From positions 1 through 23,941 of IMG/VR virus record IMGVR_UViG_3300034105_001835: a stretch of 23,941 bases of DNA. One strand, written 5' to 3'. Within the stretch, counting starts at the first letter, position 1; every line of letters starts with the position of its first letter. This stretch comes from a virus. This document shows positions 2,192-18,727 of the stretch, one piece after another. Position numbers and translations under genes: made by a program. Below the pieces are notes generated by a model. That model saw nothing but the letters and a program-made list of their open reading frames with translations, was not told the DNA's origin and searched no databases.

Positions 2192-4179
2192 AAATCTAAT
2201 GTTAATTGTAATGACTTGTTGTTAGGAACCACCACTGCAGTTGTTTCAATCTTAAGAATCTCATCATAGATTTTGTCTAGATAATATTTCTCATTGATAT
2301 TATATTCTTCAAAAGGTGCATCATACGCCTTGTTGAATAATGTCTGCAAATGTGGACCACTTTCTAATTGTATTTCTCTTCCATCTGGATTACACTTGAT
2401 AATCTTTATGCCATTGTTAGTAACAAAGTATCTTACAAGTTTTTGTAGGTTTTTAGTATAATATTTACCCATCACAACTCCTCTTTCTTGAAAGAACCAA
2501 TCACCTTTGATTTTAGAGCCAATGCAATAATCAAAGATGTTTCTGTTGGTCTTGATATACTCTTTTGGATCTACTCCATTTACAAAGTATTCATACCAAG
2601 CTTTTGGAACAATAAGCATAGACTTGTTTTTGTGAAGAGGTAAATCATCAAACTCAAATCTACCTTTACATTTGGTCTTACCATCTGCATAAACTGCAAT
2701 ATAATTGTTTACATCACCAATAATCATTTTGGAATATTCAACTGACTCCAGCTGAAGTTGCGTCATGTCTTCCCATTCTTTGCATATTTCAAAGAATAGT
2801 TTTTCATCCTTCTTGTCAACAATAAATTCTAAACCATCTGTATTCTGCATCAAAGGTTGTGCTGATGGTATTTTAACAGCTATCATCTCATATAGCATTG
2901 CTAAAAGCAACTGGCCATTCACAGTAATTCTAAAGGTCAGTTCTGGATCATACAAAAATGAATACTTACTCTTACTTAAACCATAAGTAGCGTTCAACAC
3001 AATTTTAAATAGGTAGTTCAAAGGGTCTGACTTAGGATAAGTCTTTCTTTCTTCAAAGTACCATTCATACAATTCACAAAACTCTTTCTTTGGAATCTGA
3101 GCTGGAGACCATCTATTTCTAATAGCTAAATTAGGATAGTAACTAGTTACATCTACACTAAGAATCTTCTGATGAGACTCAGGTTTATATATACCAGATT
3201 TAATACAACCATGAATACCTCCTAACGCATAGTCAGTAGGTACACCTTTGTACATCATTCTGTATTTTGGACCTTTCTTTTTCTGTTGTTCTTCACTGGC
3301 GTCAAGTATGGTTGTATCTACAATCAGGTTTTTAAACCATGTATACATACCTTGAAACTCAGGTAAGTCAAACTTTACATAGGGTAACAATATATCGCGT
3401 ATGACAACATTCTTGCGATATGTCCTCATGTTGCGTATTGTTTTCTTGTCAAGATGTAGTTTTTCTGATAGAAAATGGAGAAATATCTCTTTGGATATTT
3501 TTGGTTCACTTGCAGAATACAAGTTAACATTATAGGTAGAACTTAACTTTGCTCTCAGATTAATCTGATTGCTCATCAGTTTGTCACCTTTCTTGCTTTT
3601 AAGATTGAATATAGCTTTTGTAGAAGCAACATCATTGATGCAGTATTCTATCACCAAATCTTGTGTCTCTTTATTAGGCACTTTTTCATAATGATGATGA
3701 GGCATCTCCTCTACATTTTGCCAATCCATACTAAACTGAGCATACTTCAAAGATGTACGCTTAGCGTTGCTGTCCCAGTGATTGAGTCTGTATATATCTA
3801 CACAGCGTATGGTCATCTTAAACTCTGGATAATCTAAAAATTCACCAGAGTCAGCTTTATTAATGACGTACTGAGCATAAGAATAGATCATAGCTGCAAT
3901 TCCTTCACCAGTTTCAAATGCATTGCGAGATAGATATTCTTCTTGATTAGCCAAGATATGTTCAGTAATTTGAGCATCAAAGTTTATATTGTTATAACCT
4001 AAATGCCAGTCTTTACATTCTCTTGATTCATTAAGAAATTCAATAAATCTCTCTGTATCATTTTGATATTCACTGATTACAAAAACCTTACGCTTAGAAC
4101 TACCATGTGCCTCAAAAACTGCAATAAAAGAATTGACAATGGTTTCATAATCCATCACCCAGAATTCGCGATGTCTCAT
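2188..4179 (-). CDS. Family B DNA polymerase with 3'-5' exonuclease
   Basis: The replicative polymerase, 663 aa. The exonuclease has Exo I D10-Y-E12, Exo II NNINFD (D68) and Exo III Y179-x3-D183. A YALGGIHG motif (317-324) links it to the polymerase domain, like the YxGG/A motif best known in protein-primed PolBs. Motif A is DVTSYYP (D343), motif B KIVLNATYG (392-400) and motif C QNTDG (445-449). Motif C has Asn446 where most PolBs have Asp (DTD); Asp448 is kept. At 663 residues it is shorter than cellular PolBs. It lies 1 nt beyond the upstream stop and overlaps the next gene by 4 nt. I saw no terminal-protein gene beside it, so the priming mode is open; a DnaG-like primase is encoded upstream. 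Confidence 0.93.
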   Translation of the reverse strand: MRHREFWVMDYETIVNSFIAVFEAHGSSKRKVFVISEYQNDTERFIEFLNESRECKDWHLGYNNINFDAQITEHILANQEEYLSRNAFETGEGIAAMIYSYAQYVINKADSGEFLDYPEFKMTIRCVDIYRLNHWDSNAKRTSLKYAQFSMDWQNVEEMPHHHYEKVPNKETQDLVIEYCINDVASTKAIFNLKSKKGDKLMSNQINLRAKLSSTYNVNLYSASEPKISKEIFLHFLSEKLHLDKKTIRNMRTYRKNVVIRDILLPYVKFDLPEFQGMYTWFKNLIVDTTILDASEEQQKKKGPKYRMMYKGVPTDYALGGIHGCIKSGIYKPESHQKILSVDVTSYYPNLAIRNRWSPAQIPKKEFCELYEWYFEERKTYPKSDPLNYLFKIVLNATYGLSKSKYSFLYDPELTFRITVNGQLLLAMLYEMIAVKIPSAQPLMQNTDGLEFIVDKKDEKLFFEICKEWEDMTQLQLESVEYSKMIIGDVNNYIAVYADGKTKCKGRFEFDDLPLHKNKSMLIVPKAWYEYFVNGVDPKEYIKTNRNIFDYCIGSKIKGDWFFQERGVVMGKYYTKNLQKLVRYFVTNNGIKIIKCNPDGREIQLESGPHLQTLFNKAYDAPFEEYNINEKYYLDKIYDEILKIETTAVVVPNNKSLQLTLDL

Positions 4180-4180
4180 G

Positions 4181-4540
4181 TTATTTTTCTTTTATGAATG
4201 CTTGAAAAGATTTGTGACTTGGGTTTACAGCAAATTTCTCTACAAACTCTCTAATATCAGCTTTCTCAGAAATGTAATACTCATAATAAGCATCAAGTAT
4301 TATTCTTTGCTCTTGTAAACCTAGTGTTCCATCAGCTTTTTTAACTGTCACAGGAAGACCTTTGTCAGATAACCTAGGCATCATCATAGGTTTTTCTTTT
4401 ACTTCTTTGCTAATAACAGCAAGAACTTTCTGAGTTGGATCATAAATTGCCTCTATGAAAGGGCATTCTTCTGAAGTTGGAATCATGCGAAATGTTTCAG
4501 TGTCATTCCACGTTGCTGCGTAAATCATCATGTTAGTCAT
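4181..4540 (-). CDS. Hypothetical protein, 119 aa, between PolB and nuclease genes
   Basis: I place the start at ATG 4538-4540, which overlaps the upstream stop by 8 nt; an earlier ATG at 4615 lies deep in the upstream gene. The protein begins MTNMMIYAATWNDTETFRMI, has a beta-rich first half, an odd EKPMMMPRLSDKGLP stretch and a helical C-terminal half (EQRIILDAYYEYYISEKADI) ending in FIKEK. No enzyme motif or membrane segment is present. Its stop is 1 nt from the PolB start, so it is co-translated with the polymerase and may assist it. No family is recognised. Confidence 0.72.
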   Translation of the reverse strand: MTNMMIYAATWNDTETFRMIPTSEECPFIEAIYDPTQKVLAVISKEVKEKPMMMPRLSDKGLPVTVKKADGTLGLQEQRIILDAYYEYYISEKADIREFVEKFAVNPSHKSFQAFIKEK

Positions 4541-5078
4541 TGGTATTGAATTTAAAGGTTTCTTTTTCTGGATCATATTTATTGCAAAGTTCACCAACTT
4601 TTTGCAAGGTATCAACAGGTATCAATAATATTTCTGCATATGCTTTAAAATATTTCTTAGGAAACAAAAATGATTCTACATATACCCATTCAGGAGTATG
4701 TATACCATAATAGTCAGAAATTGCTTTCTTGGCTTTTTCACTAAACTTTGAATATTTACCATTGATAAAGTTTGTGCAGTCTTTGCTAAACATATGCAGA
4801 TCAAATACATATGCCATTTTGCCATCTTCTGTTTTATTAACAAAGTCTAACATAGGATGACATAGTAAAACTTTTGTTTCAAAATCATGCCATGCTTGAC
4901 TATCATCTGGTTCGTAAACACAGATCAACTTGTTGTCAGTAACTGCTACTTCCTCATCTTGCCAGCTCACATAAGTTTGAACTGGCTTGAATGGAGTAGA
5001 GTTCTTCTTGAATCCTAATAAAGGATACAAAAAGGTATAAGACTTTTGAAAATAGTCTTTGTACAGAGTTTTTATCAT
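4533..5078 (-). CDS. Hypothetical protein, 181 aa
   Basis: Soluble, aromatic-rich protein starting MIKTLYKDYFQKSYTFLYPL, with ATG overlapping the upstream TGA by 4 nt. It contains Trp, Tyr and Phe-rich blocks (VSWQDEEVAV, YGIHTPEWVYVESFLFPKKY) and no obvious catalytic triad, Walker motif or zinc site. It sits between the RecE-like nuclease and the 119-aa gene, in the same translationally coupled run as the polymerase, so a role in replication or recombination is the contextual guess. No family is recognised. Confidence 0.75.
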   Translation of the reverse strand: MIKTLYKDYFQKSYTFLYPLLGFKKNSTPFKPVQTYVSWQDEEVAVTDNKLICVYEPDDSQAWHDFETKVLLCHPMLDFVNKTEDGKMAYVFDLHMFSKDCTNFINGKYSKFSEKAKKAISDYYGIHTPEWVYVESFLFPKKYFKAYAEILLIPVDTLQKVGELCNKYDPEKETFKFNTND

Positions 5079-6118
5079 AGTTCTATTTCATTGTTGTTAA
5101 TTAGAAACTCATATGGAAGATCAAAGTTTTTGTTATCAAAATGATAATCTGCTTTCTTGATTTCAATTTCTAATCTCTCTTCCCACTCTTTCATAGTCTC
5201 ATCAGTAACTTTGATAGGAGCAATTTGCATAAGTGAATCTACAACAACAAATCTGAATACTATATTATAATCTGCATATTTTGGCTGAGACAAGTACACA
5301 TGCTCTACAAGCTTTTTATACATGGCAGCTTGGAGATAATATCTATAGTACTCAATACTGTCTGTAAAACTTGTAACAGTTTTTGCAGTCTTCTTTAAGT
5401 CATTGATTCTTATCTCCTTTTTATCAGCATCAATAACCAAGTTATCAATGATACCTCTCAGACCAAAGTTAGGACTGTGACCAAACTTTACAAGTTGCAA
5501 CTCATTAAACTTTTCTGTTAAGCTAAAAGAGTCTGCAAAGAATCCCATGATGTCCATTACATATGGAGTACTTTTAATTTTAGATACCACTGAACTACAA
5601 AAGTTGTATGTGTCATCATCAATTATTATACGCCCTTCTGCTTTTTTCAAGTATTCAAAGTAAGCAATGTTTTTAGCTATTACCATTTTCTCCACGCGTT
5701 GTGAATCTGTTTTTAAAGATTGATATAAATTCACATCTTTTAAAACATCAAGAATAGCACCATTAAAATCAGCCAAGTTTTCTCTTGGATCACCATGTGC
5801 ATGCAGTTCTTTATAGTGATTGAAAATAATATTAATCACAGCACGTGCGTTGTCAGAAGGCAGATCAGCAGCACTGATTACAAAATCATCTTCAAACTTT
5901 TCAGGATTTAATAACAAACAATGTATAAGCGAACCTTCCATTGTTGTTTTGTCATAGCTGTCTTCTCTTTGGTTAAGCACATAGTGCATATAAAAGTTAA
6001 CAGGGCTATATGCTAACTTGCTCAAACCTGAGTAAGACATTAAGAAATCTTTTCCATAGAACTCTTGTTCTTTCTGGATTCTTTCTGAGATAGGAATTTC
6101 CACCAAATATTTTTTCAT
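5075..6118 (-). CDS. RecE-like PD-(D/E)XK exonuclease
   Basis: Predicted 5'-3' dsDNA exonuclease of the PDDEXK-like DUF3799/RecE-Cas4 type, used with an annealase or ATPase in phage recombination. From ATG 6118 (347 aa) the layout is: LSKLAYSPVNFYMHY helix, GSLIHCLLLNPEKF (His66, the usual GxxxH motif), Glu203, GIIDNL (Asp225), NDLKKT (Asp240-x-Lys242, the D/E-x-K pair) and YYLQAAMY (Gln263, the Q-motif helix). All expected catalytic positions are present. An upstream ATG at 6148 lies in the GIY-YIG gene; ATG 6118 is 1 nt beyond that gene's stop and is preferred. Pairing with the SSB-like protein and Sak4-like ATPase genes fits a complete recombination set. Confidence 0.83.
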   Translation of the reverse strand: MKKYLVEIPISERIQKEQEFYGKDFLMSYSGLSKLAYSPVNFYMHYVLNQREDSYDKTTMEGSLIHCLLLNPEKFEDDFVISAADLPSDNARAVINIIFNHYKELHAHGDPRENLADFNGAILDVLKDVNLYQSLKTDSQRVEKMVIAKNIAYFEYLKKAEGRIIIDDDTYNFCSSVVSKIKSTPYVMDIMGFFADSFSLTEKFNELQLVKFGHSPNFGLRGIIDNLVIDADKKEIRINDLKKTAKTVTSFTDSIEYYRYYLQAAMYKKLVEHVYLSQPKYADYNIVFRFVVVDSLMQIAPIKVTDETMKEWEERLEIEIKKADYHFDNKNFDLPYEFLINNNEIEL

Positions 6119-11652: not shown

Positions 11653-12024
11653 ATGTCAGAAGAAAAAAAATCAGAAGATGTTGTTGGTGTAATCAAAGAA
11701 GATGCTATTGTTAACATCCCAATGAGTACAGGTTACTACAAAAGAATCCAAGGATTGTTGAATGCACACTTAGAAGGAAGAACCAAAGAAGACTTTGAAA
11801 AAGCACACACTGCTATCAAAGAACAAAACATTACAGAAGGATGGGTATTTCATTATGAAACACTTTTAATCTTATGTAATGAGTTTGAAAAAACAGCAAG
11901 AGCTCACAACTTTATAGATGAGGTTCCTTTATCTGAGTATCAAAAAACTGTTGAAGAAAAGATGAAAGAAATTCAATCTAAAGAGGATGATGAAAATACT
12001 GCTCCTGAAGTGTCTCCTGCTTAA
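11653..12024 (+). CDS. Acidic helical protein, the only rightward gene in the replication block
   Basis: A 123-aa highly charged, mostly helical protein: a disordered N-terminus (SEEKKSEDVVG), a central helical domain (STGYYKRIQGLLNAHLEGRT; WVFHYETLLILCNEFEKTA) and an acidic tail (KMKEIQSKEDDENTAPEVSP). No helix-turn-helix or enzyme motif is evident. It starts 40 nt from ung, divergently, and its stop overlaps the stop of the leftward neighbour by 3-4 nt, so it is squeezed between opposed genes. Isolated reverse-oriented small genes in phage early regions are often regulators, but the acidic composition could equally suit a DNA mimic or binding partner. The function is unknown. Confidence 0.85.
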   Translation: MSEEKKSEDVVGVIKEDAIVNIPMSTGYYKRIQGLLNAHLEGRTKEDFEKAHTAIKEQNITEGWVFHYETLLILCNEFEKTARAHNFIDEVPLSEYQKTVEEKMKEIQSKEDDENTAPEVSPA

Positions 12025-15685: not shown

Positions 15686-15714
15686 AAGAAAGGGAGTTTT
15701 AAGCTCCCTTTTTT
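15686..15714. terminator. Bidirectional intrinsic terminator
   Basis: AAGAAAGGGAG (15686-15696) pairs with CTCCCTTTTTT (15704-15714) around a 7-nt loop, an 11-bp stem with one G-U pair. On the leftward strand it starts 1 nt after the stop of the 85-aa gene and is followed by TTTCTT; on the rightward strand it ends in TTTTTTG. It ends the leftward DUF cassette and could also end a rightward small transcript. Confidence 0.8.
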
Positions 15715-15715
15715 G

Positions 15716-15973
15716 TTAATCAAAAACATAAGCAACAGTGTTGTTAAAAGGATCAAACTCTACTTGATTAGTTTTCTCATAGATTCCTTCTTCCAACTTG
15801 ATAATTCCATGCTCATCATGAAAAATCAAAGCATCACTAAGCAATTCAAACTTTACTGTTTGTTTGTCAGTTGATGTTTCAACAACTTTTATGTTGTTTT
15901 TACCTGCAATCATCATGTGCTTTTGTTTTTCACCTTCAGGTGTCAAATGCAATTTGTTTACTAAAGTTTCCAT
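15716..15973 (-). CDS. Small beta-rich protein paired with a DUF6745-like gene
   Basis: An 85-aa protein with alternating beta-strand pattern: NIKVVETSTD, TVKFELLSDALIFHDEHGII, then KLEEGIYEKTNQVEFDP and a final VAYVFD. The line 'H.i.L..G.Ye...Q.E.dP......v.D' resembles, from memory, small proteins encoded beside DUF6745 genes in many bacteria ('H.l.LpaG.Y.v.rQrEy.p....rv.D'). Its ATG overlaps the TAA of the upstream DUF6745-like gene by one base (TAATG), so the two are co-translated. It is the last gene before the terminator at 15686-15714. The function of this family is not known to me. Confidence 0.75.
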   Translation of the reverse strand: METLVNKLHLTPEGEKQKHMMIAGKNNIKVVETSTDKQTVKFELLSDALIFHDEHGIIKLEEGIYEKTNQVEFDPFNNTVAYVFD

Positions 15974-16689
15974 TAACTTGCTGATTTTAATAAGTTTACA
16001 TATTCTTCTGCACTAAGATGACGTGGGCTACATGGCTCACTTTTGTCAGATAATTTTGTAACTATAACATCACCTTGTCTGTGCAAATACTGAGGATTAG
16101 TATGTTCTAATCGTATGGTCCAAGCAATTGCTTCTAAAGCATTGTTCTTTTCACCTACAATTCTTGGTACATAAATCCAGTATTCTCTTTTTGTGGTAGT
16201 ACACCAGCATCTTACAGCATAAATTGTAGCTCTATCTGTACGCCATTCTGAAGTTTCTTCTGGAAATAGTTTGTTACCATCAATTTTGTAAAGTTCATAC
16301 ACATCAACTGTTGCAATTTTTGTTTGAACTCCAATAGAATCTGTGATTATATTATCATAAAAAATTCTGTCTTTGTGAATCAATTCTGGATCTAATGCTT
16401 TGAATAACTCAATAACACCAATAGCTTTAAAGCACAGTCTTCTAATTTCCACATTCTTTTCAGAAAATGCTTCAGAAATTGTAATATCTGAAATATCATT
16501 CCATTCTTTAAGCATATCCTCACCAAACTCATCATAAGATGCTGTTCTTGCAGGTGCAATTATTGCTGCATGAAATTCTGGAAAATCTTTATAAGTCTTT
16601 TTCCATAATTTTGCAGCCCATGTAATATCTACTGCATAGTTTTCTACAGTAAAGTTCACATCCTTATATTTTTCAATCAACTGTTTCAT
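15973..16689 (-). CDS. DUF6745-like protein
   Basis: A 238-aa soluble protein. Features recalling DUF6745 are the helix NVEIRRLCFKAIGVIELFKA followed by LDPELIHKDRIFYDN, a strand region ending in TVDVYELYKIDGNKLFPEET, the tract AVRCWCTTTKREYWIYVP and NALEAIAWTIRLEHTNPQYL near the end. In DUF6745 proteins the order is 'evRR..ier.G...fl..l', 'g.LYr', 'y.lrVPp' and 'ai.AiAWtfg'; the order here is the same. The C-terminus reads SEPCSPRHLSAEEYVNLLKS. No activity is known for the family. The match is by eye. It overlaps the upstream gene by 17 nt and the downstream one by one base. Confidence 0.78.
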   Translation of the reverse strand: MKQLIEKYKDVNFTVENYAVDITWAAKLWKKTYKDFPEFHAAIIAPARTASYDEFGEDMLKEWNDISDITISEAFSEKNVEIRRLCFKAIGVIELFKALDPELIHKDRIFYDNIITDSIGVQTKIATVDVYELYKIDGNKLFPEETSEWRTDRATIYAVRCWCTTTKREYWIYVPRIVGEKNNALEAIAWTIRLEHTNPQYLHRQGDVIVTKLSDKSEPCSPRHLSAEEYVNLLKSAS

Positions 16690-17377
16690 CTTCTAAAAGA
16701 TCTAAAAGGTTAATATTAACTCCATTTGGTTCATTCTGGTAAGCTCTGTACTGATAATTGCTAAATACATGTACCAGGAAATCTCCTTCTTCTGTAAAAT
16801 CACTTTTGTCAAAATCATAATCTTGATATGCTGATGTTATTTCTTGATCATCTCCTATTTCTCTATTAATCTCAGCTAAAACATCTTCACTCCACGCATT
16901 TATTTCTGTTTCTATTTTGTCAAAATAGGCTTCTGATTCTTTTGAAAAGAATCCATTGGTTACTGATGCATTGATGTTAAAAGAATAATCTTCACCTTCA
17001 CATTCCATATGCAATGTGTCAAAATGTATTGTCTTAGGAATTTTGATAGTAAAAGGTTTTGAACATGTGTGTACAAATGTGTCTTCTGTGCTAAAGTAAT
17101 CTGTACCATCAAACTCTTTTGTTTCAGGATTGTACTCTGCTTCACCACTTGTAGAAAACTCACCAGCCCATGAACCATAGTCCAAGGTTGCATACATTTT
17201 TTCAATTAACCACTCAGCTTCTGGTTGAGAGCTTTTTTCACCATCAAGTTCAAACCAACACCATCCTGAATCTCCTCCACCTTCCCAGCAGAGTTTTAAT
17301 TCAAAACCTTGTTCAGTTTGTTCATCACACCATTTGATGATATCTTGTATGGTTAATTCTTTTGTTTTTTCACTCAT
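16673..17377 (-). CDS. Acidic protein with a DUF6878-like beta domain
   Basis: A 234-aa very acidic protein. The helix IQDIIKWCDEQTEQGFEL leads into WEGGGDSGWCWFELDGEK (about 31-48), then EAEWLIEKMYATLDYGSWAG and a Gly/Asp-rich strand region (EFSTSGEAEYNPETKEFDGT). The 'GGGDSG' turn followed by a helix, a W-x-G region and an acidic strand resembles DUF6878 ('Y.G.GDSG...'), from memory. The second half is beta-rich and acidic without a recognised domain. The gene overlaps the DUF6915-like gene by 4 nt and the DUF6745-like gene by 17 nt, so the three are tightly coupled. The function is unknown. Confidence 0.75.
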   Translation of the reverse strand: MSEKTKELTIQDIIKWCDEQTEQGFELKLCWEGGGDSGWCWFELDGEKSSQPEAEWLIEKMYATLDYGSWAGEFSTSGEAEYNPETKEFDGTDYFSTEDTFVHTCSKPFTIKIPKTIHFDTLHMECEGEDYSFNINASVTNGFFSKESEAYFDKIETEINAWSEDVLAEINREIGDDQEITSAYQDYDFDKSDFTEEGDFLVHVFSNYQYRAYQNEPNGVNINLLDLLEDETVD

Positions 17378-17772
17378 GGCAATTTAATTTTAGGTTGTTC
17401 AACATAATCTAACTTCTTTTCATTGATTTCTTTGAGAACTTTTCTTCCTTCTCCTGGTTTAAACATCCAACCAGCCATTGTCATGTTATCAAGATAATCC
17501 TTGATTGTAGGAATATATCCTATGTCTTCAATAATGTGCTGTTCACCAATAATTCTTGTAGGAACTTTTTTCCCATCAGAATTAATAATATAGACACCAA
17601 ACTCTCTCTCACACCAGAATATACCTTCTGTATGATGACGTAACGCTCTGTGACGCATATCTGGGTAGTGCATTTTTGTTTCATCAAACCAATTGTGAAT
17701 TGGCAAATAATCTTCTTCAATACCTCCATGCTTTCTTACGCTGGAAATACTGTGATGTAAAGGATGACTCAT
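17374..17772 (-). CDS. DUF6915-like protein
   Basis: A 132-aa protein from ATG 17772, 1 nt beyond the upstream stop; an earlier ATG at 17805 lies in the upstream gene. It starts MSHPLHHSISSVRKHGGIEE, then DYLPIHNWFDETKMHYPDMR and HRALRHHTEGIFWCEREFG, followed by IGEQHIIEDIGYIPTIKDYL and a final MAGWMFKP. This His-, Asp- and Trp-rich line is very characteristic of DUF6915, a family spread across bacteria and phages with unknown function. The many conserved His, Asp and Glu residues look like a metal site, suggesting a metal-dependent hydrolase; that is inference. The family assignment is one of the safer calls in this cassette. Confidence 0.82.
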   Translation of the reverse strand: MSHPLHHSISSVRKHGGIEEDYLPIHNWFDETKMHYPDMRHRALRHHTEGIFWCEREFGVYIINSDGKKVPTRIIGEQHIIEDIGYIPTIKDYLDNMTMAGWMFKPGEGRKVLKEINEKKLDYVEQPKIKLP

Positions 17773-17773
17773 G

Positions 17774-18208
17774 TTACTTTGTTTTTTCAATGATTTTAAT
17801 CTCATCTAGCTTACTCATCTCCATCTGCAATAATATTCTTAAATTATCTTTTGACAAAGTGATTTGTTCTTCTGGAATATTCATGTAATGAGATAAGAAC
17901 TCTTCGTGAGATGCAAACACCAACTCTTTGTCTTCAGGTAAGTTTAATATCATATCTGGCATTAATTCTGCACTACCTGTGTTTGCTCTGTAAATTGCAG
18001 CTCCTGCACACTGATCAACTGCTTTTGGATCAGAATTTTTGTCTTTATATTCCTTGTCCATATGGCAAGGTAGCCAGAATGGCCCTAGAGATTGTCCTAC
18101 ATATACAAAAGGGTGCGAACCACCTGGATTAGCACCCTTTAAATTGTTATCTCTTCTAAATGGACATCCTTTACATGGCTTTTTACGCTTCTGTAGAGAT
18201 TGGCTCAT
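17774..18208 (-). CDS. DUF6283-like cysteine motif protein
   Basis: A 144-aa protein from ATG 18208; ATGs at 18223 and 18256 would lengthen its overlap with the upstream gene. The N-terminal half matches DUF6283: KPCKGCPFRRDN (C12-x2-C15), KGANPGGSHPFVYVG, PFWLPCHMD (Cys48-His49) and DQCAGAAIYRAN (Cys67). Four spaced cysteines suggest a zinc site or iron-sulfur cluster. The second half is helical and acidic (PEDKELVFASHEEFLSHYMN; KDNLRILLQMEMSKLDEIKI), with a repeated 'PE.. L' helix start. The family is known mostly from phages and mobile elements; function is unknown. Confidence 0.8.
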   Translation of the reverse strand: MSQSLQKRKKPCKGCPFRRDNNLKGANPGGSHPFVYVGQSLGPFWLPCHMDKEYKDKNSDPKAVDQCAGAAIYRANTGSAELMPDMILNLPEDKELVFASHEEFLSHYMNIPEEQITLSKDNLRILLQMEMSKLDEIKIIEKTK

Positions 18209-18467
18209 CTTCTTTTTTGTCATTAAGTAGTGTTTCAATTGTACTAGTTGCAGCATACATTAACTTAGTGATAGTTTGCCATAACAACATCTTGTCAGCA
18301 TCCATTTTTACAGTTGTAAACATAAACTCTTTTCTGTATGTACTTGGACTCATAGATACACTGTTCTTGTTTACTGTAACAATGATTGATACTTCTTTTG
18401 TTGTACCATCAGATAATGTAATTTCTTCTGATAACTTGTACTCTTTTACTGTTTGTTCAATTTTCAT
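18183..18467 (-). CDS. Hypothetical protein, 94 aa
   Basis: A small protein with two beta hairpins (IEQTVKEYKLSEEITLSDGT, then TKEVSIIVTVNKNSVSMSPS), a basic segment (TYRKEFMFTTVKMDADKML) and a helix ending in the acidic tail KKEDEPISTEA. No motif or family is recognised. It lies in a run of small genes, its stop inside the DUF6283-like gene (26-nt overlap) and an 11-nt A-rich leader before it. A longer rightward frame across the same DNA is hydrophobic and reads against the operon, so I take the leftward frame. Confidence 0.68.
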   Translation of the reverse strand: MKIEQTVKEYKLSEEITLSDGTTKEVSIIVTVNKNSVSMSPSTYRKEFMFTTVKMDADKMLLWQTITKLMYAATSTIETLLNDKKEDEPISTEA

Positions 18468-18478
18468 GATTTTAGATT

Positions 18479-18727
18479 TTAATGCGTTCTTAACTTTGTG
18501 TCAAAGAAGTTGTCTTTGATCTTTTCTTCTGCTAAAAGCTCTACTGGAGGTATAGCTTCTTCCCATGTAATTTCACCTAGAGTGATGTCATCATGTGCAT
18601 GAGGAATTTTTATCACTTCAATAGTAAAAGGAAATGATTCTTCTGACTCAATGGGGTCAGGGTGATAAGTGCCTCTCATATATTCAATAATCTGAAAAGG
18701 CTTTTTGAAAATTTCTATTTTTTCCAT
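18479..18727 (-). CDS. Hypothetical protein, 82 aa
   Basis: A soluble protein starting MEKIEIFKKPFQIIEYMRGT, with an acidic centre (YHPDPIESEESFPFTIEVIK), a HAHDD motif near residue 43 and a helical C-terminus (PPVELLAEEKIKDNFFDTKL). The HAHDD residues could bind metal, but nothing else supports an enzyme. Its ATG shares one base with the upstream stop (TAATG), so it is co-translated with the cysteine-rich gene upstream. No family is recognised. Confidence 0.7.
   Translation of the reverse strand: MEKIEIFKKPFQIIEYMRGTYHPDPIESEESFPFTIEVIKIPHAHDDITLGEITWEEAIPPVELLAEEKIKDNFFDTKLRTH

Follow-up and report, generated by a model that had tools for sequence, protein, structure and literature searches.

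A four-gene phage cassette of uncharacterised protein families contains a split protein and may encode a two-pair accessory complex

Introduction

Do neighbouring phage genes whose products resemble only domains of unknown function act together, and in what process? The question is raised by a 23,941-base stretch of viral DNA (the window), which is AT-rich (32.9% GC) and is a piece of a phage of about 120 kb whose full-size relatives measure about 119-125 kb. An earlier note, made from the sequence alone, described in it a coupled cassette of five leftward genes encoding a small beta-rich protein and proteins resembling DUF6745, DUF6878, DUF6915 and DUF6283, and suggested that they form a conserved functional module. 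These families are already on record as domains of unknown function, and a literature search that reached a minority of the subscription papers found none that names DUF6915, DUF6745, DUF6878 or DUF6283. Here, we ask which of the genes belong together, how the proteins are related to families found elsewhere and what the cassette might do.

Results

The five open reading frames were all recovered on the minus strand at the coordinates previously given: g1 (15716..15973, 85 aa), g2 (15973..16689, 238 aa), g3 (16673..17377, 234 aa), g4 (17374..17772, 132 aa) and g5 (17774..18208, 144 aa). Their reported spacing was also exact, with overlaps of 1 nt between g1 and g2, 17 nt between g2 and g3 and 4 nt between g3 and g4, and a 1-nt gap between g4 and g5. 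Downstream of g1, the proposed terminator corresponds to a real hairpin (15689..15711; -14.3 kcal/mol, z -4.0), unequalled by any shuffled sequence; a consensus scan did not list it. This probable terminator may act in both directions, because its leftward tail is only TTTCTT and its rightward tail consists of six T. The top sigma-70-like site of the region, a promoter-like TTGACA-17-TAAAAT (18476..18504, minus strand) recognised by its match to the consensus at 11 of 12 positions, lies upstream of the gene at 18183-18467 and of the cassette.

The cassette was said to sit inside a replication block, and the genes around it agree with that description. The window encodes a DNA polymerase, an exonuclease, a primase, a DnaB-like helicase and a DNA helicase, together with a dNMP kinase, a thymidylate synthase and a dUTPase. 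A lone plus-strand gene (11653-12024, 123 aa) is the one exception to the leftward direction of the block, and many relatives keep it inverted. Such a setting is what would be expected if the module served phage DNA or nucleotide metabolism (base modification, or dUTP/uracil control) alongside the dUTPase, thymidylate synthase and polymerase. We consider this rather unlikely: in one relative (L014) g4-g3-g2-g1 remain contiguous without an adjacent dUTPase or the window's polymerase.

Conservation was analysed in 33 contigs carrying DUF6915 at 72-84% identity, plus one further contig (L036). Wherever these contigs were long enough, the order g4-g3-g2-g1 was kept on one strand. Among the related contigs, many of which are near-duplicates, the spacing between g4 and g3 ranged from -23 to +3 nt in 31 of 32 and that between g3 and g2 from -17 to +11 in all 32, and g2 and g1 overlapped or lay within 11 nt of each other in 20 of 31. 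The near-zero spacing often took the form of ATGA or TAATG overlaps, and, being conserved in relatives, this spacing is not due to chance. One contig (L027) lacks the adjacent dUTPase and has g1 2.1 kb from g2. The fifth gene behaved differently from the core: g5 recurred in only two of the 33 contigs (L001 and L018). The five-gene module was therefore rejected in favour of a four-gene core, g4-g3-g2-g1, next to which g5 is a variable neighbour. The four-Cys g5 protein scored 14.8 bits against DUF6283 (PF19800; cut-off 27) and its Brevundimonas phage homologue (L313) 21.3 bits (E 3e-4), both below the cut-off, so that DUF6283-like is a name based on weak scores. A tblastn search of named phages with g1, g2 and g3 returned no match.

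The name DUF6915 for g4 was confirmed outright by a match to the full Pfam profile (PF21866, E 4.6e-43, 146 bits against a cut-off of 27). With bacterial DUF6915 proteins, g4 shares 44-59% identity. Across 55 sequences, 21 positions are invariant, and these include ten His, Asp or Glu residues (H7, H26, D30, D38, H41, H46, H47, E77, H79 and D83). The AlphaFold2 (AF2) model is mostly helical (pLDDT 91.6) and found no fold match in the PDB (Foldseek best E 1.4, best Z 2.7), an absence that does not by itself denote a new fold.

For the weaker families, alignments were built from related phages and compared profile to profile with hhalign. On its own, g3 did not match DUF6878 (PF21798) in Pfam, and a Pfam scan of eight related-phage records, each about 120 kb long, detected no other DUF6878. 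The g3 family nevertheless aligned with bacterial DUF6878 (88.9%, 2.4e-6, 64 columns), against at most 2.5% for the other 22 window families used as controls. The homology is moderate and confined to the N-terminal domain, comprising the GGGDSG motif and the region that follows; the WEGGGDSGW motif of g3 (17261..17287, minus strand) aligned to the FDGxGDSGQI motif of DUF6878. The DUF6878-like label is thus justified by the family comparison but not by g3 itself, which is best described as a diverged DUF6878-like N-terminal domain followed by a C-terminal half of unknown affiliation.

The same approach placed the two remaining proteins. Against DUF6745 (PF20530), g2 scored 17.5 bits (cut-off 27) over the C-terminal 30 positions only, whereas hhalign matched it to bacterial DUF6745 at 97.7% (E 2e-12, 109 columns after realignment), the next-best window family reaching 0.6%; the DUF6745-like name holds at this level and stays under the Pfam cut-off. 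The small beta-rich protein g1 could be assigned to a defined family without a name, for which we coined the label HEEH from its pattern LAxGExTGHxH ... HEEHxxIxLPxGxY ... QREYxP, and which occurs as a pair with DUF6745 in phages as well as in bacteria. An intact phage HEEH member had no match in Pfam. The alignment of g1 with the bacterial family (97.2%, E 4.6e-11) covered HEEH columns 29-99 of 110, and g1 contains the core LAxGE...H...HxEH...GxY. In 101 near-full-length HEEH sequences the upstream His is invariant (1.00) and the H-x-E-H residues are conserved at 0.98, 0.96 and 0.98. The corresponding HDEH motif of g1 (15809..15820, minus strand), a putative metal site, is part of an H[DE]EH element present in 23 of 24 g1 relatives. 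Sequence searches against the PDB yielded nothing useful; in them the N-terminal repeats of the bacterial DUF6745 protein matched one NADase chain (E 5e-6).

The columns absent from g1 were located in g2. Intact HEEH proteins start with RQGDV, and the end of g2 aligned with HEEH columns 1-22 (80%, 1.4e-5); this first strand of the family, QYLHRQGDVIVTKLSDKSE (16036..16092, minus strand), is fused to the C-terminus of the DUF6745-like protein. A QGD[VI] element ends g2 in 25 of 25 window-clade relatives, is missing from g1 in 24 of 24 and is not found in any of 13 DUF6745 proteins taken from outside this clade. Judged from these alignments, the HEEH protein of the window clade is split, its first strand having moved onto the DUF6745 protein and g1 retaining the C-terminal three quarters. 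The description of five separate proteins had missed both the split and the partial fusion, and it is this split and fused form that is new. Since the cut protein is complete only if both chains meet, the arrangement argues for binding between DUF6745 and HEEH, and two of the four families probably share one fold. In one subclade (within the g2-g1 gap in L015-L030) a small Cys-containing ORF lies between the two HEEH halves; in L026 (6987-7238) it encodes TNCHNCVHSRSNSF.

The split was also modelled with AF2, using g2 and g1 of one relative (L015) joined by in-frame filler DNA read through the stops, with no intact HEEH protein in the alignment. Both parts were predicted confidently and the filler was disordered. 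The pTM of 0.68 over 398 aa exceeded the 0.585 (233/398) possible from g2 alone; the model therefore places g1 relative to g2. The tethered model found no fold match in the PDB (Foldseek best E 0.017, best Z 3.0), which again is not equivalent to a new fold. It matched a predicted structure from Acidianus rod-shaped virus 2 (BFVD A0A0N9P6K3; Foldseek probability 1.00, E 0.019), and by this model comparison an archaeal virus, too, may possess the fold of HEEH or of DUF6745.

Outside the clade, the families proved to travel as two pairs. Searching bacterial and archaeal genomes with the DUF6915 alignment gave 218 relatives, of which 80 were kept. A DUF6878-like gene was present in 77 of these 80 loci, nearly always directly upstream of DUF6915; some negative gaps between the two reflect over-long ORF starts. 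By record titles, the loci belong to Alpha- and Gammaproteobacteria, Acidobacteria, Planctomycetes, Abditibacteria, Neomarinimicrobiota and cyanobacteria. The pair (PF21798, PF21866) resembles the window in that both families are adjacent on the same strand. It differs in order, DUF6878 preceding DUF6915 in bacteria whereas g3 lies downstream of g4, and in the DUF6878-like protein of the window, which is longer and escapes detection by Pfam. Two gammaproteobacterial loci (L073 10237-11487; L092 516-1796) have a DUF6878-type match within a longer gene downstream of DUF6915. A second viral scan gave at least 574 contigs with DUF6915. Among 56 of these loci, mostly outside the window clade, DUF6878 was upstream in 45 and a window-type g3 downstream in two, one was cut off upstream and eight had neither.

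The recurrent neighbours of the bacterial pair were genes for ParB-like proteins (27 of 80), strawberry-notch helicases (12 of 80), Rad52-like proteins (10 of 80), Toprim proteins (Toprim/DUF7146, 8 of 80) and ArdC antirestriction proteins (7 of 80). Genes of these kinds on mobile elements have been discussed as early-phase conflict effectors (PMC5512222). Of the gene types of the polyvalent-protein/ArdC antirestriction regions of conjugative elements, ParB-like, strawberry-notch helicase and ArdC genes are those that surround bacterial DUF6878-DUF6915 pairs. The window cassette lacks the domains of these regions, so the likeness is one of context only. Nucleotide genes are not found near the bacterial pairs, which again speaks against a role in DNA metabolism.

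Directly downstream of DUF6915, phages of Streptomyces, Gordonia, Sinorhizobium and Synechococcus encode another conserved protein, with the motif WxQYTPYFNDGDxCEF (L039 6390-6920; L142 3395-3964; L143 3396-3893; L146 3372-3950; L038 5967-6599; L141 3362-3841). The idea that the actinophage version is a hidden DUF6878 was unsupported (0.2%); from the position of its gene, it looks as if DUF6915 were able to swap partners. Streptomyces phage Daubenski (L039) also encodes a TROVE and Ro60-vWA protein near DUF6915 (3907-5553), with many tRNA genes around them, and jumbo-phage TROVE proteins have been discussed as RNA-repair platforms (PMC7824862). A module handling RNA, for example by assembling RNPs or repairing RNA in infected cells, would fit this neighbourhood. 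However, a Ro gene was seen near DUF6915 only in the single phage lineage of this kind that was inspected, and neither the surroundings of the window cassette nor the recurrent neighbours in bacteria include an RNA gene, which makes this reading improbable.

Of the second pair, HEEH and DUF6745, neither member was present in the bacterial DUF6915 loci (none in 80, up to 10 kb on each side), and the two were found together in all eight plasmid-collection records. The HEEH gene immediately adjoins DUF6745 in Alienimonas, four Deinococcus, Methylobacterium, Streptomyces, Nonomuraea and Nocardia. At least 284 viral contigs contain HEEH; where at least 2.5 kb was available on both sides, 49 of 51 also had DUF6745 in that stretch, 36 of them within 100 nt. 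In Microcystis phage MaMV-CH01 the two genes lie about 0.75 kb apart, surrounded by polA pieces, dut and a UDG-superfamily gene, and an ERF recombinase gene is near some viral HEEH-DUF6745 pairs; both neighbourhoods favour the DNA-metabolism reading.

In five of six annotated plasmid-collection cases (three Deinococcus species, Methylobacterium and Streptomyces) the HEEH-DUF6745 pair adjoins STM4011-4015 genes. The same two families are side by side there as in the window, but in bacteria an intact HEEH gene precedes DUF6745, whereas the window HEEH is split with its first strand on DUF6745. The direct adjacency would be explained if the DUF6745/HEEH half were part of a pathway of the STM4011-4015 type that modifies proteins or peptides, and phages retained only that half. 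This too has a low probability: the pair is present in Deinococcus ficus and in many phages with no STM genes noted, no STM gene was found in the window, and the scanned window proteins, a part of its ORFs, include no radical SAM protein. A search of the same literature for STM4011-4015 function found nothing.

The two pairs meet again in a second phage group, the L194/L199 group. All four families are contiguous in five contigs (L188, L194, L197, L199 and L228), and two more (L182 and L219) have three of the four in loci that are cut off. As in the window, DUF6878, DUF6915, DUF6745 and HEEH lie together on one strand; unlike the window, HEEH is intact, DUF6878 comes first, a DUF3085 gene (Pfam match in L228) stands between DUF6915 and DUF6745, and the flanks are dissimilar. 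In L194, DUF6745 and DUF6878 exceed their Pfam cut-offs. The window's polymerase was missing from the three records of this group (145-205 kb) that were searched in full, and BLASTP of the seven loci against the window proteins matched DUF6915 alone. Recurrence outside close relatives, which the earlier note had itself set as its test, was thus observed in bacteria (77/80), in viruses (45/56) and in this second group.

Because an otherwise dissimilar phage group of 145-205 kb has all four families contiguous, a functional module of the four is well supported. Small early genes co-inherited by chance, with no joint function, could account for the gain and loss of neighbours such as g5, the separation of the two pairs in bacteria and the distance of g1 from g2 in L027. 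This was already unlikely, and we give it very little weight against the presence of all four families in two dissimilar groups, the near-universal pairing over several phyla, the start-stop overlaps kept in relatives and the splitting of HEEH.

Discussion

Our overall best explanation, which we hold tentatively, is that the core genes encode a metal-binding, four-protein accessory complex of two subunit pairs, DUF6915 with the DUF6878-like protein and the DUF6745-like protein with the split HEEH, which has an early counter-host or nucleic-acid-protecting role. The proteins would be made together through translational coupling, alongside the DNA replication genes, and the DUF6745 and HEEH chains would associate to complete the HEEH fold across the split. 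From gene order and the split, the four proteins likely form one complex. In bacteria the pairs mostly occur apart from each other, a counterpoint to a single complex, and so each can work alone. DUF6915 and HEEH probably bind metal, given the conserved His/Asp/Glu sets: ten residues in DUF6915, and three near-invariant His and one Glu in HEEH. Of the subunits, we regard DUF6915 as the most likely to be catalytic or to bind a ligand.

The complex would act early in infection, countering a host function or protecting phage nucleic acid, in parallel with the genes that neighbour the bacterial DUF6878-DUF6915 pair on mobile elements. We infer a counter-defence role by analogy: the antirestriction and recombination genes around the bacterial pair and the location in the phage make a counter-host role the likeliest single reading, with modest confidence. 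The radical-SAM cluster (STM4011-4015) adjoining bacterial HEEH-DUF6745 is a counterpoint to counter-defence. PADLOC models did not match the four core proteins and gave one weak hit to g5 (E 0.0037).

It is possible, if somewhat doubtful, that the cassette represents an undescribed four-subunit phage system in which two independent bacterial pairs are joined and locked by a split subunit, with a new metal-dependent activity and unsolved folds. With at least 574 viral contigs carrying DUF6915 and at least 284 carrying HEEH, a common phage component has apparently gone undescribed. Linking the four families turns four separate unknowns into a single testable complex.
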